NCBI GenBank assembly: GCA_009921265.1
Contig: RFYV01000026.1
Coordinates: 1-39,945, forward strand
DNA length: 39,945 nt
Source: Betaproteobacteria bacterium
GTDB lineage: Bacteria > Pseudomonadota > Gammaproteobacteria > Burkholderiales > Burkholderiaceae_C
Direction of reading: 5' to 3'
Part shown: piece after piece, positions 22,474 through 27,401 of the stretch
How positions within the stretch are numbered: position 1 is the stretch's first letter
Layout of the letters: each line of letters begins with the position of its first letter
Notes under the pieces: model-generated
The model's database searches: none
The model's input: only the letters and a program-made list of their open reading frames with translations
What the model was told of the DNA's origin: nothing
Translations under genes and position numbers: made by a program

Positions 22474-22501
22474 TTGCAGATTTCGATTTATGCGTTCTAA
22501 T
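22474..22501 (+). promoter_or_regulatory. Candidate promoter of the riboswitch-terC transcript
   Basis: TTGCAG (22474-22479) is separated by 16 bases from TCTAAT (22496-22501), which matches 5 of 6 bases of the -10 consensus. Transcription would start near 22508, a few bases before the first conserved riboswitch segment. The -35 box is weak (3 of 6). Confidence 0.45.
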
Positions 22502-22510
22502 GATTCTATC

Positions 22511-22665
22511 GATGGGGAGTAGCTTAATTTTTACCTGAGATAAGTTTCAAGACTGCGGGTAAAAATCAACAAATCGTCAATCCGGAGTTTATCTCCCGGT
22601 TTGTTGGGCATACAAAATTAATACAAGCATAGCAAGACCTTCGATCCGTCCTCCCCATTGGGGAA
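22511..22665 (+). promoter_or_regulatory. yybP-ykoY manganese riboswitch
   Basis: A structured leader before the TerC-family gene. It has the conserved first segment GGGGAGTAGC (22514-22523), internal stems including CCGGAG...CTCCCGG (about 22580-22597), a GCATACAA segment, and the conserved closing segment GCAAGACCTTCGATC (22632-22646). The 5' GATGGGGAG can pair with 3' CTCCCCATT (22651-22659) to close the outer stem. The same CCCC (22653-22656) could instead fold with GGGG (22660-22663) into a small hairpin. This class binds Mn2+ and turns on export genes, and the TerC/Alx family is a classic target. The ribosome-binding AAGG is at 22681-22684. Confidence 0.85.
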
Positions 22666-22690
22666 TTTGATTGATCGTTAAAGGTTTCAC

Positions 22691-23401
22691 ATGGAAATTT
22701 TCTCACTCCCATGGTGGTCTGCTTTGCTTGCCATCGTATTAATTGATTTGGTTTTAGCTGGCGATAACGCCATTGTGATTGCACTAGCAGCACGTAATCT
22801 GCCTCAACATCTACAAAAGAAAGCCATTGTCTGGGGTACCTTGGGCGCCATTGTGATTCGCTCATCCATGACCGTTGGCGTTGTTTGGTTACTCAAAATA
22901 CCAGGCCTCATGTTGGTGGGTGGTTTAGGTCTACTTTGGATCGCCTATCAACTGCTCACCGACAACTCGCAAGAAAATCACGGCGACGTCAAAGTGCATA
23001 GCTTTTGGAGCGCCATGCGCACCATCATTGTGGCCGATGCGCTCATGGGTATAGATAATGTTCTGGGCGTGGCGGGTGCCGCACAAGGTGCTTTTGATTT
23101 AGTCATCTTGGGCCTCTTAATCAGTATTCCAATCGTTGTATTTGGAAGCCAGTTTGTTTTAAAACTGGTTGAACGTTGGTCTTTTATCATACAAATTGGT
23201 GCAGGTGTTTTAGCCTTCACTGCCGCACAAATGATTGTGCAAGAACCTTTCCTTGACCCCATCTTTGATGGTTCAGGATACATCCATGACGTCTCGAAAT
23301 GGGCCACCTATAGCCTGTGTATTGCAGGCGTCTTGCTATTGGGATGGTTCACCAATAAACGGCAAAACTCAGAATCCTCAACTCAAACAATTTCCACATA
23401 A
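22691..23401 (+). CDS. TerC-family integral membrane protein (YjbE/Alx-like), Mn2+-linked
   Basis: A 236-residue inner-membrane protein with about seven hydrophobic segments. The two family signatures with metal-binding acidic residues are present: LIDLVLAGDNAIVIALA (Asp19, Asp25, Asn26) and ADALMGIDNVLGVAGAA (Asp116, Asp122, Asn123). TerC proteins handle Mn2+ or Ca2+ efflux, or metal supply to secreted proteins. Translation starts at ATG 22691 with AAGG six bases upstream, directly after a Mn riboswitch, so metal-dependent expression is expected. A small gene follows at 13 bases and is probably co-expressed. Confidence 0.92.
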   Translation: MEIFSLPWWSALLAIVLIDLVLAGDNAIVIALAARNLPQHLQKKAIVWGTLGAIVIRSSMTVGVVWLLKIPGLMLVGGLGLLWIAYQLLTDNSQENHGDVKVHSFWSAMRTIIVADALMGIDNVLGVAGAAQGAFDLVILGLLISIPIVVFGSQFVLKLVERWSFIIQIGAGVLAFTAAQMIVQEPFLDPIFDGSGYIHDVSKWATYSLCIAGVLLLGWFTNKRQNSESSTQTIST

Positions 23402-23413
23402 AAGGAGCTTCTC

Positions 23414-23857
23414 ATGGAAACATTCATTGCATTTATTGATGACGGAGAGCACGCGGTTCAAAGCATGATTCCCATGCTTCATAGCACGACTCAAGCGAAA
23501 TGGATTTTGGTGGCATGTCCACCCAAACTCAATCGACATAGCAGCAAATGGATCACTCAAAAAGCCATGAAAAGATGGCAGAGCAATTGGTCACAAAAAT
23601 GCTTGCAATCATTGATTGAGTTGCTGAATACAAAAAAAGATACTTATATCACTCGCACAGCGAATGGCTCATTGATCGATTTATCGACGCAACTCAAAAC
23701 TGAGTATCAACCGTCCCGAATATTGGATTGGAGAAGACCTAAGTTGGGCGTTCAATTAGAACCTCTCACAATTGACCAACCCCAAAACGACAACAAATGG
23801 GTCATACCCAGTGGCGTCATTGCTTTGGGCAGTGTGATGGCCATCGCGATTGATTGA
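23414..23857 (+). CDS. Small hypothetical protein downstream of terC
   Basis: Not recognised. 147 residues, soluble through most of its length with a hydrophobic C-terminal segment (VIPSGVIALGSVMAIAID). The N-terminus METFIAFIDDGEHAVQSMIPML looks like the start of an alpha/beta sensor or stress-type fold, and a basic, Trp-containing middle (KAMKRWQSNWSQKCLQSL) follows. An AAAGGAG site precedes the ATG, 13 bases after the terC stop, so it likely shares the Mn-regulated transcript. Perhaps a tail-anchored accessory protein (inference). Confidence 0.75.
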   Translation: METFIAFIDDGEHAVQSMIPMLHSTTQAKWILVACPPKLNRHSSKWITQKAMKRWQSNWSQKCLQSLIELLNTKKDTYITRTANGSLIDLSTQLKTEYQPSRILDWRRPKLGVQLEPLTIDQPQNDNKWVIPSGVIALGSVMAIAID

Positions 23858-25196: not shown

Positions 25197-27401
25197 ATGA
25201 CGGTTTCCACACTCAAACACAACATGAGTGGCGATATTTGGGGTGGGTTTGCAGCTATGCTCGTTGCACTGCCTTCTGCGATTGCATTCGGGGTCACCAT
25301 CTTTGCACCTCTTGGAAGTGAATTTGGCGCCAAGGGTGCACTTGCTGGCATGCTAGGCGTCACTGCATTGGGTTTGATTGCCGCCATCTTTGGTGGCACT
25401 CAACGATTGATCTCTGCGCCTTGTGCACCTGCTGCCGCGGTCTTATCGGCCATTGCGATTGAATACACACGACAAAACATGACACCTGAAATGATTGTGC
25501 TTTGTTTGTTTTTAATTGCACTCAGTGCAAGTCTTGGACAAATTTTATTTGGCGTCCTCAAAATTGGACGACTGATGCGTTACATGCCCTATACCGTGGT
25601 GAGCGGTTACTTGAGTGGTGTTGGAATCGTCGTGATATTGAGTCAAATCCCCAAATGGCTTGCAACACCTAAAGGAACAAACTGGTGGCAAAGTTTAATC
25701 AGCCCCGATTTGTGGCAACTCCCCAGTCTATTGATTGGACTTGTAACAGGTTTGGCCATGATTTATGGACCGAAGTTAACGCATAAAGTTCCTGCGGTCA
25801 TCATTGGACTGGCGGGTGGAATAATCACTTATTGGTTGCTAGCGTTCAATCAATGGCCTATTCTTTTGAATATAGAAAACAATCCATTTGTGATTGGTCA
25901 TCTGTCGGCCGATTTCAATGGCATGGTCGATAACATTCAAGGACTTTGGCAAAGTTTATTTGTCAATGCAATTCCAAGGTGGGATCAAATCTTAGTGCCC
26001 GCTATCACTTTAGCGGTTCTGTTATCGATTGATACGCTTAAAACCTGTCTGGTTCTGGATGCGCTCACAGGATCGCGTCACAACTCCAATCAAGAACTCA
26101 TCGGTCAAGGGCTTGGCAATCTCACATCTACTCTTTTAGGCGGCGCGCCCGGTGCTGGAACCATGGGTGCCACTTTGGTTAACAAAGCCAGTGGGGGTGA
26201 GACTTTTTTATCGGGAGTTTTTCAAGGTGTTTGGGCTTTGCTGGCAGTTATTTTTTTGACGCCACTGATTGCATGGATACCCACAGCCTCGCTGGCAGCT
26301 TTGCTTTTGGTGATAGGTTATCGCATGATTGATGTGCATAGTTTTAAATTACTCAAATCAAACGATACGTGGTTAGATTTTGGCGTGATTGTGTTGGTGA
26401 TCATCGTTGCCAACACAGTCAGCTTGATTGCAGCATCCGGATTGGGTGTGCTGCTTGCAATTTTGTTGTTTATTTCTGAACAAGTCAATTCCAGCAACAT
26501 CAAGCAAAAAAGTTTTGGCGACCAACGTTTTTCAAAACGTGTCCGAACAAGACAAGAAATTGAAATCCTAAAAAAAGATAGTCGAACCAATGTGATTATT
26601 GAGTTACAAGGAAGTTTATTTTTTGGTACCACCGATCAACTCTTTGTGGCTTTAGAAGAAGACTTAAAAACAGCCAAATTTTTAATTTTAGATTTCAAAC
26701 GGGTGCAATCTTTAGACTTTACAGCAGGTCATATGCTCGAGCGATTTGAACAAACCTTGCGCGAAAGAGGTGCAAAATTAGTGTTAAGTAGGCTTCCAGA
26801 AAAAACGATAGCAGGTAAAAACATAAAAACTTACATCAATCATGTGGGTCTGCAAAATTCAGAGGTGACTCATTTATTTGACGATCTGTTAGACGCTTTG
26901 GAGTGGGTAGAAAATGAAACCCTTAACAACAGTCATCTCAAAATGGAGTATACGGACGACTTGAGTTTGAATCACTTTGAGTTATTTAAAAATCTTGAAT
27001 CCAATGAAATCCAAATACTTGAAACCATTATTCAGCACCAATATTTCAAAAAAGGTGAAGTGATTTTTAAAGTGGGGAAATCGGGCCAGCAACTCATGAT
27101 GATTTCCAATGGATTGGTTCGCATCAGTATTCAAACGCCTGAAAATCACACATCCCACTTAACAACCTTGGGAAAAGGGCAATACTTTGGCGAAATATCT
27201 TTTGTTGACTTGGAAAATCGATCGGCAGACGCGATTGCAATAGAGGATACGCACTTGATTTGTATCTATCGCTCAGAGTTTGACAGCCTGCTCAAGTATC
27301 AAATGCCAATCATACAAAAAGTTTTTGCTAATATTTCACTTTCATTGGCACATCGATTACGAAATACAACGGATGAAATGCGCCATTTAATGGACGGCTA
27401 A
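25197..27401 (+). CDS. SulP/SLC26 anion transporter with STAS and cyclic-nucleotide-binding domains
   Basis: A 734-residue protein in three parts. Residues 1-430 are the SulP membrane domain (DIWGGFAAMLVALPSAIAFG, GLGNLTSTLLGGAPGAGTMGATLVNKASGG), moving sulfate, bicarbonate or a similar anion. Residues about 460-570 are a STAS domain (VIIELQGSLFFGTTDQL, FLILDFKRVQSLDFTAGHML). Residues about 600-734 are a cNMP-binding domain with the phosphate cassette YFGEISFVDLENRSADA, including Glu666 and Arg675, which contact the ribose and phosphate in active members. So cyclic-nucleotide gating is plausible. An AAAGGGAG site precedes the ATG. It follows the thioesterase closely and is convergent with the DUF1345 gene, three bases away. 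Confidence 0.93.
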   Translation: MTVSTLKHNMSGDIWGGFAAMLVALPSAIAFGVTIFAPLGSEFGAKGALAGMLGVTALGLIAAIFGGTQRLISAPCAPAAAVLSAIAIEYTRQNMTPEMIVLCLFLIALSASLGQILFGVLKIGRLMRYMPYTVVSGYLSGVGIVVILSQIPKWLATPKGTNWWQSLISPDLWQLPSLLIGLVTGLAMIYGPKLTHKVPAVIIGLAGGIITYWLLAFNQWPILLNIENNPFVIGHLSADFNGMVDNIQGLWQSLFVNAIPRWDQILVPAITLAVLLSIDTLKTCLVLDALTGSRHNSNQELIGQGLGNLTSTLLGGAPGAGTMGATLVNKASGGETFLSGVFQGVWALLAVIFLTPLIAWIPTASLAALLLVIGYRMIDVHSFKLLKSNDTWLDFGVIVLVIIVANTVSLIAASGLGVLLAILLFISEQVNSSNIKQKSFGDQRFSKRVRTRQEIEILKKDSRTNVIIELQGSLFFGTTDQLFVALEEDLKTAKFLILDFKRVQSLDFTAGHMLERFEQTLRERGAKLVLSRLPEKTIAGKNIKTYINHVGLQNSEVTHLFDDLLDALEWVENETLNNSHLKMEYTDDLSLNHFELFKNLESNEIQILETIIQHQYFKKGEVIFKVGKSGQQLMMISNGLVRISIQTPENHTSHLTTLGKGQYFGEISFVDLENRSADAIAIEDTHLICIYRSEFDSLLKYQMPIIQKVFANISLSLAHRLRNTTDEMRHLMDG

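Follow-up and report, generated by a model that had tools for sequence, protein, structure and literature searches.

How is the TerC gene of this locus switched on, and what is the small gene that follows it? The locus lies on a 39,945-base contig (hereafter the window) of a 3.56-Mb genome, and a preliminary description had assigned the leader of the TerC gene to the yybP-ykoY class of Mn2+-sensing riboswitches. This assignment was borne out by our analysis, and the explanation that we consider likely as a whole is that of a translational ON switch of the yybP-ykoY (Mn2+) class, driving a YjbE-type TerC gene together with a Usp-like partner. The coordinates of the features are collected in the table below.

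As the preliminary description had proposed, the leader was searched with the Rfam model RF00080. With a permissive threshold the model matched end to end at 22502-22676 with 31.5 bits (E = 4.5e-7 for the stretch), and in a search of the whole genome the leader was the sole match (E = 1.1e-6). These low E-values go with a score that falls short of the curated cut-off of the model (gathering score 45 bits), so that Rfam at its default settings reports no hit in the window. Model R2, for which 27 relatives were used and the window was held out, matched 22506-22645 at 111.7 bits (E = 4.7e-26; next match 8.3 bits), and across the whole genome the window leader was again the single match. At its cut-off, RF00080 recovered 3 of 16 genus loci, with the window among the 13 missed, and 0 of 20 family loci (L085-L104 out of L085-L172 were tested). 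A miss common to 13/16 genus loci and 20/20 family loci reflects the reach of the model; since 33 of the 36 Burkholderiaceae loci of YjbE-type TerC tested are missed at the cut-off, this subtype is probably under-annotated. Matches to PsrR1 (29.3 bits, cut-off 42) and IS128 (15.6 bits, cut-off 80) upstream were taken as chance.

Relatives were collected with the small protein as bait, because loci obtained in this way are independent of the RNA. The small gene was found in 15 of 84 genus genomes, and in all 15 a TerC gene stands before it and GGGGAGTAGC...GCAAGACC lies upstream. Named genome records, whose genomes partly overlap the genus set, yielded 25 loci via the small protein, 24 of them with both TerC and the leader; the sequence of the 25th starts just 353 nt upstream of the small gene. 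Searching with model R1 gave matches in 17 of the 84 genus genomes, namely the 15 that carry the small gene, a sixteenth with a contig stopping inside it (G102) and one with a weak match (G047, E = 8.4e-5), and in 182 of 399 family genomes. From the family, 88 loci were fetched (L085-L172) and 79 parsed, the other 9 being dropped where the motif pattern was unmatched; TerC is present in 78 of the 79, and the small gene lies downstream in 57.

An alignment of 28 aptamers, window included, had 91.6% of the cells of P1.1, P1.2, P3, P3.1 and P4 paired, with double-sided changes in 12 of 29 pairs, 10 of the 12 in P3 and P3.1. The covariation score was 0.289, as compared to 0.149 for shuffled alignments (0 of 500 shuffles equalled it); slid partners gave no more than 0.123. 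Support differed between helices: P3 had 96% of cells paired and double-sided changes in 7 of 11 pairs, P3.1 95% and 3 of 5 pairs, and P1.1, in which AUCGA-U-GG (22508-22515) faces CC-U-UCGAU (22638-22645), 78.6% and 1 of 8 pairs, while P4 consists of two base pairs with no double-sided change. P2 is supported by the alignment fold of the short-platform leaders described below. The four-helix architecture of the class (P1.1, P2, P3/P3.1, P4) is therefore present, together with the L1 strands GGGGAGUAGC and GCAAGACC and an L3 with the Mn-binding adenosine; GCAAGACC is invariant in the aligned leaders, as are CGUCA and CG of L3 (28/28). The conserved segments that the preliminary description had listed are also in place, GGGGAGTAGC at 22514-22523 and GCAAGACCTTCGATC at 22632-22646. 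The leader is a true member of the yybP-ykoY (Mn2+) riboswitch class.

In the Lactococcus lactis riboswitch the Mn site is formed by G9, U39, C40, A41, U44 and C45, and P1.1 pairs A3-G7 with C96-C102, such that G6 and G7 lie within P1.1 and G9 in the Mn site (available text of PMC9190785); A10 of L1 makes a cross-helix A-minor contact (available text of PMC6754395). The core of the window reads GGGGAG at 22514-22519 and CGUCAAUCCG at 22575-22584. In our own mapping GGGGA would correspond to L. lactis positions 6-10, and in our reading of the alignment A22579 would be the Mn-binding adenosine (A41/A48). We infer that Mn2+ is the ligand of this leader. We also considered whether the loops of P2 and P4 touch (CAG/CUG in many leaders of the Limnohabitans group) and rejected this, as the best helices were no better than shuffles: the median p was 0.30 in 19 leaders with an ACAAGC-type P4, where p ≤ 0.05 was reached in 2 of 19 (the window, at 0.041 with a different helix, and L055), and 0.65 in 75 other leaders. 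This set comprised 108 aptamers minus 6 unparsed and 8 with short regions, with L044 parsed by hand.

Table. Features of the riboswitch leader and the two genes behind it (positions in the window).
Feature	Position	Strand	Basis
Candidate promoter TTGCAG-16-TCTAAT	22474..22501	+	by eye; transcript would start near foot of P1.1
yybP-ykoY (Mn2+) riboswitch aptamer	about 22506..22646	+	RF00080, held-out model R2, covariation in 28 sequences
5' strand of switch helix P1.1 (AUCGAUGG)	22508..22515	+	alignment pair counts; L. lactis P1.1 (available text of PMC9190785)
L1 loop strand GGAGUA and P1.2 GC	22516..22523	+	invariant, 28/28 leaders
P3, L3 and P3.1; L3 core CGUCA..CG at 22575-22584	22566..22607	+	alignment
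P4, GC/GC (22608-22609 with 22627-22628), 17-nt loop	22608..22628	+	100% of cells paired
GCAAGACCUUCGAUC: P1.2 and L1 3' side, then P1.1 3' strand = anti-Shine-Dalgarno strand	22632..22646	+	
Hairpin UCCCC-AUU-GGGGA capping the OFF arm	22652..22664	+	pair probability 0.92-0.99
Partner of 22636-22646, GAUCG...AAAGGUU; holds Shine-Dalgarno AAAGG (22680-22684)	22673..22686	+	ensemble pairing
TerC family gene, YjbE type, 236 aa	22691..23401	+	PF03741 153 bits; TIGR03717 215 bits
AAGGAG ribosome-binding site of second gene	23402..23407	+	sequence
Small gene, 147 aa	23414..23857	+	probable degenerate Usp-like domain; hydrophobic C-terminal tail, residues 130-146

The TerC target and the two-gene unit that had been described both stood. 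The TerC gene scores well over the cut-off of the subfamily model TIGR03717 (R_switched_YjbE; 134.8 bits), as compared to 33 bits against a cut-off of 246 for the Alx-type model, and a TIGR03717 gene is a Mn-homeostasis target of the kind that goes with the class. We infer that both genes share one transcript. Upstream, TTGCAG-16-TCTAAT might serve as a promoter, and similar TTGnnA-16/17-TCTAAT/TTTAAT sequences were seen by eye in the leaders of several relatives; a scan for consensus promoters found none. The genome of the window (G000) has two more TerC genes over the Pfam cut-off (contigs C194 and C218), and the window's riboswitch is the sole riboswitch match in this genome.

The analysis supported the idea of switching by two mutually exclusive folds, also raised in the preliminary description. 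When 22495-22720 is folded without constraint, the bases of 22636-22646 (3' strand of P1.1) each pair into 22673-22686 with ensemble probabilities of 0.89-0.98; AAGG (22681-22684) is closed, and the Shine-Dalgarno sequence is paired with the P1.1 strand at 0.95. The mechanism that we propose is the following. At low Mn2+, the P1.1 3' strand GACCUUCGAUC would pair with 22673-22686, and the resulting OFF arm, capped by the UCCCC/GGGGA hairpin (CCCCATTGGGG), would bury the Shine-Dalgarno sequence. Mn2+ would join L1 and L3 and so hold P1.1, upon which the OFF arm would open and TerC would be translated; the second gene, 12 nt downstream of TerC, would use its own ribosome-binding site, and its product would likely sit on TerC. 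Translation would thus be the controlled step in this model. In the thermodynamic model the OFF fold lies 10.3 kcal/mol below the forced ON fold, in which the Shine-Dalgarno sequence is only partly free, and Mn2+ docking and co-transcriptional folding would have to offset these 10.3 kcal/mol. The whole window leader folds 1.7 SD below shuffles, 12 of 200 of which fold as well.

To compare relatives, leaders were sorted by eye, and not blind, into 16 with a short and 12 with a long platform, leaving out L022; the sorting preceded the duplex and ensemble measurements, with GATC and AAGG near the start already visible. The P1.1 strand covers the Shine-Dalgarno sequence at 0.60-1.0 in 14 of the 16 short-platform leaders, the exceptions being L041 (0.29) and L056 (0.0). 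Among the long-platform leaders, where no Shine-Dalgarno sequence was recognised in 2 of 12, such pairing was found in 1 of 10 measurable (L059, 0.63), and by another measure the P1.1 strand of four finds a partner near the start at 0.61-0.81. Duplexes that this strand forms with the 30 nt preceding the start codon had a mean z of -2.7 against shuffles in the 16 short-platform leaders and of -0.03 in the 12 long-platform ones; the duplex of the window itself was equalled in 30 of 300 shuffles and that of L041 in 197 of 300. The long-platform leaders must work by another route.

Because 15 of the 16 short-platform leaders share one and the same OFF strand, the OFF pairing displays almost no covariation. 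The cap hairpins of these leaders vary in sequence and are constant in position; folded alone, 10 of 16 were equalled by no more than 5 of 100 shuffles, that of the window by 12 and the weakest (L043) by 39. In the wider family, 57 leaders were classified (no start codon was found in 22 of the 79 loci), and the P1.1 strand pairs near the start in 4 of them; CCUUCGA pairs with a downstream UCGAAGG at 0.5 or more in 6 of the 57.

The switch itself is an ordinary, widespread riboswitch, correctly recognised, and the partner gene is more interesting than the switch. It had been described as a small unknown partner: the gene is there and has no Pfam or NCBIfam model, but it can be placed as Usp-like and tied to TerC. 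The protein matches no Pfam family over the cut-off, including PF00582 (Usp; gathering cut-off 24), and that of the window no NCBIfam model, the 25 members giving scattered weak NCBIfam matches only; searches of plasmids and of PHROGs gave no match either. In a PDB sequence search the best match, a PHD finger protein (E = 0.065), was taken as chance. In 23 of the 25 members (exceptions L049 and L060) no other 17-residue stretch is as hydrophobic as the C-terminal tail, and the last residue is D or E in 24 of 25. The small gene is shortened in one copy (L042:1501-1872, the same gene in L060), which stops at 124 residues, without the hydrophobic tail.

Across the family the small protein was matched in 121 of 399 genomes, and 106 of the 127 matches listed have a listed riboswitch match 769-1138 nt before them on the same strand; the remaining 21 include genomes in which the riboswitch match is unlisted, contig breaks and weak matches. 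Sixteen regions around matches without listed riboswitch linkage were fetched, and following them up led to the TerC-Usp fusions described below. Five further genomes (L177-L181) have no YjbE-type TerC within the 2 kb fetched, and their small gene is divergent from another riboswitch of the yybP-ykoY class. This divergent switch precedes an Alx-type TerC in L177, L178, L179 and L181 (TIGR03718, 403-408 bits, cut-off 246); in L180 the tested frame behind it gave no family. Two further loci, L112 (G187) and L184 (G235), carry two riboswitches back to back, one serving a YjbE-type TerC with the small gene and the other an Alx-type TerC (TIGR03718, 406 bits in L112; 52 bits in L184, where the gene is truncated to its start).

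In five of the 399 family genomes (G220, G223, G313, G320 and G393), the match to the small protein is the C-terminal part of an open reading frame with an N-terminal TerC, and each of these fusions scores 155-164 bits for Pfam TerC and 69-89 bits for Usp (PF00582). The fusions (L186-L190) are open frames of 426-541 aa from Burkholderiaceae. Three riboswitch motif patterns were sought in the sequence available upstream of them and did not occur there, and all five genomes are absent from the matches of model R1. A profile of the small protein matched the five Usp halves plus a stand-alone Usp (L182) over its full length (97.4%, E = 1e-11). The match held over 99 columns with the tails removed (95.9%, E = 5e-9) and against the five fusions alone (93.8%, E = 1.7e-7), as compared to at most 0.3% in controls for the tail-less match (one reversed, eight column-shuffled).

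The window's genome encodes three Usp proteins, which the Usp profile made from the fusion halves and L182 matched at 98.0%. The small protein itself, compared directly with these three, gave a negative result (0.3%), so that its link to Usp runs through the fusions only. All five fusions end in the same kind of hydrophobic C-tail as the small protein. The GTAR..SVT stretch of Usp, which we take to be the region of the nucleotide-binding motif, is changed in the small protein to DARRPK.. (DWRRPK in the window). That the profile of the small protein matches the Usp portion of the fusions, tail included, suggests that this protein is a Usp-like subunit of TerC, probably a degenerate one. By analogy with the natural fusions it most likely sits on TerC, which would entail physical contact between the two proteins. 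One may go further and propose, with confidence and doubt evenly balanced, that the model-less family, which in Burkholderiaceae is mostly encoded directly after TerC genes with a Mn2+ riboswitch, is a membrane-tailed, degenerate Usp subunit that gates or localises TerC, with the switch setting the amounts of both, and that some lineages have fused the two.

The proposed pairing of the P1.1 strand with the Shine-Dalgarno sequence has to be weighed against the two specific folds that the preliminary description had named, in which a closing stem of GATGGGGAG (22511-22519) and CTCCCCATT (22651-22659) alternates with the CCCCATTGGGG hairpin (22653-22663) just before the ribosome-binding site. This 9-bp stem can form, with one G-U, and is unusual for the window, beating all but about 0.3% of shuffled platforms (p about 0.003, 5000 shuffles); a fold forced to contain it (-54.7 kcal/mol) is 5.2 kcal/mol better than one forced into canonical P1.1 (-49.5). 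The window is not alone in such pairing, since strong helices joining the L1 strand to the platform also turned up in L066 and L067 among 28 leaders tested (p = 0.006 and 0.018); these helices are different ones, however, and no shared element emerges. On the other hand, the stem consumes L1 loop nucleotides of the metal site, its fold is 5.1 kcal/mol worse than the free fold, one of its inner pairs has an ensemble probability of 0.0002, and its 3' half, CTCCCC, occurs downstream in 1 of 29 leaders and is missing from the 28 relatives checked; we therefore rejected it as the closing helix. The folding check that had been proposed bears out the hairpin, whose CCCC/GGGG pairs form at 0.98-0.99, but not the long stem. 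Even so, 16 nt lie between the hairpin and AAAGG, and it does not extend to the Shine-Dalgarno sequence; located outside P1.1, it caps the OFF arm and does not compete with that helix. The alternation of these two folds is thus very improbable, and the pairing between P1.1 and Shine-Dalgarno strands is better backed.

Control at the level of transcription termination, intrinsic or by Rho, in place of translation appears unlikely to us. The L. lactis switch does act by termination (available text of PMC11087558), premature stops were inferred by the authors in Bordetella pertussis (available text of PMC8546581), and Escherichia coli mntP combines a riboswitch with Rho (available text of PMC11647493); in the window, the hairpin at 22649-22664 is listed as terminator-like, one of 6 such sites in the stretch as compared to 1.8 in shuffles. 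However, the tail after this hairpin is AUUUGAUUGA and not a U run, for which an intrinsic terminator at the leader was rejected, and the recurrent cover of the Shine-Dalgarno sequence in 14/16 short-platform leaders argues for translation. That the small gene encodes an unrelated co-transcribed protein resembling Usp by chance would agree with its lack of family matches and with the negative comparison to its own genome's Usp proteins, but seems quite improbable given the tail-less profile match far above its controls, the same tail in the fusions and the riboswitch linkage in 106 of the 127 matches listed. We give almost no credence to the view that the leader has decayed or is a relative of the class that does not sense metal, as the 31.5 bits against the cut-off of 45 might indicate: the low score is a trait of the Burkholderiaceae TerC subtype, in which 3 of 16 genus loci and none of the 20 family loci tested reach the cut-off, the low-scoring loci keep the GGGGAGTAG and CAAGAC strands and the TerC gene, and the held-out model gives 111.7 bits.

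Compared with known systems, the translational ON switch favoured here shares with the L. lactis yoaB and Xanthomonas oryzae yebN aptamers the L1 strands, the invariant adenosine of L3 and P1.1 as the switch helix. It differs from them in its score below the Rfam cut-off, a long variable P2 and a P4 of two pairs, and in a platform where the partner of the P1.1 strand is the Shine-Dalgarno sequence and not a terminator. The E. coli alx riboswitch, which is translational, and that of mntP are of the same Mn2+ switch class, and the alx target is also of the TerC family; the target in the window is of the YjbE type (TIGR03717), not the Alx type, and is followed by a Usp-like gene. E. coli mntP is a translational riboswitch as well (available text of PMC11647493), and Mn-responsive yybP-ykoY control is known from B. 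pertussis, another member of the Burkholderiales (available text of PMC8546581). The terC gene of Vibrio parahaemolyticus is similar in being a Mn2+-induced TerC gene behind a predicted yybP-ykoY switch, and unlike the window in that the available text of PMC13274385 mentions no Usp-like partner. With Usp (PF00582) and the five Burkholderiaceae TerC-Usp fusions, the small protein has in common the profile similarity over its whole length including the C-tail; unlike them it is encoded by a separate gene, scores nothing for PF00582 and has an altered GTAR..SVT stretch.

TerC has been described as a Mn exporter and as a metal loader of exoenzymes (available text of PMC10550928 and PMC13274385). 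The partner could offer a testable entry to how TerC is regulated or coupled in Mn export or enzyme loading (available text of PMC10550928): if a Usp-like subunit is tied to TerC by gene order, a shared switch and fusion, it would be a regulator open to deletion and assay at once. Among the open-access titles and abstract starts listed, there was no description of an operon of TerC and a Usp-like gene or of a TerC-Usp fusion.

Two further loci, L020 (G082) and L021 (G065), have short riboswitch matches upstream of an open reading frame for a LysR-type regulator and not a transporter; the call rests on Pfam HTH_1 and LysR_substrate in L021 and on inspection by eye in L020. In the window itself, positions 25197-27398 (+) encode a sulfate-permease-type transporter with a STAS domain and a C-terminal cyclic-nucleotide-binding domain, for which the nearest NCBIfam model is BicA (237 against a cut-off of 880).
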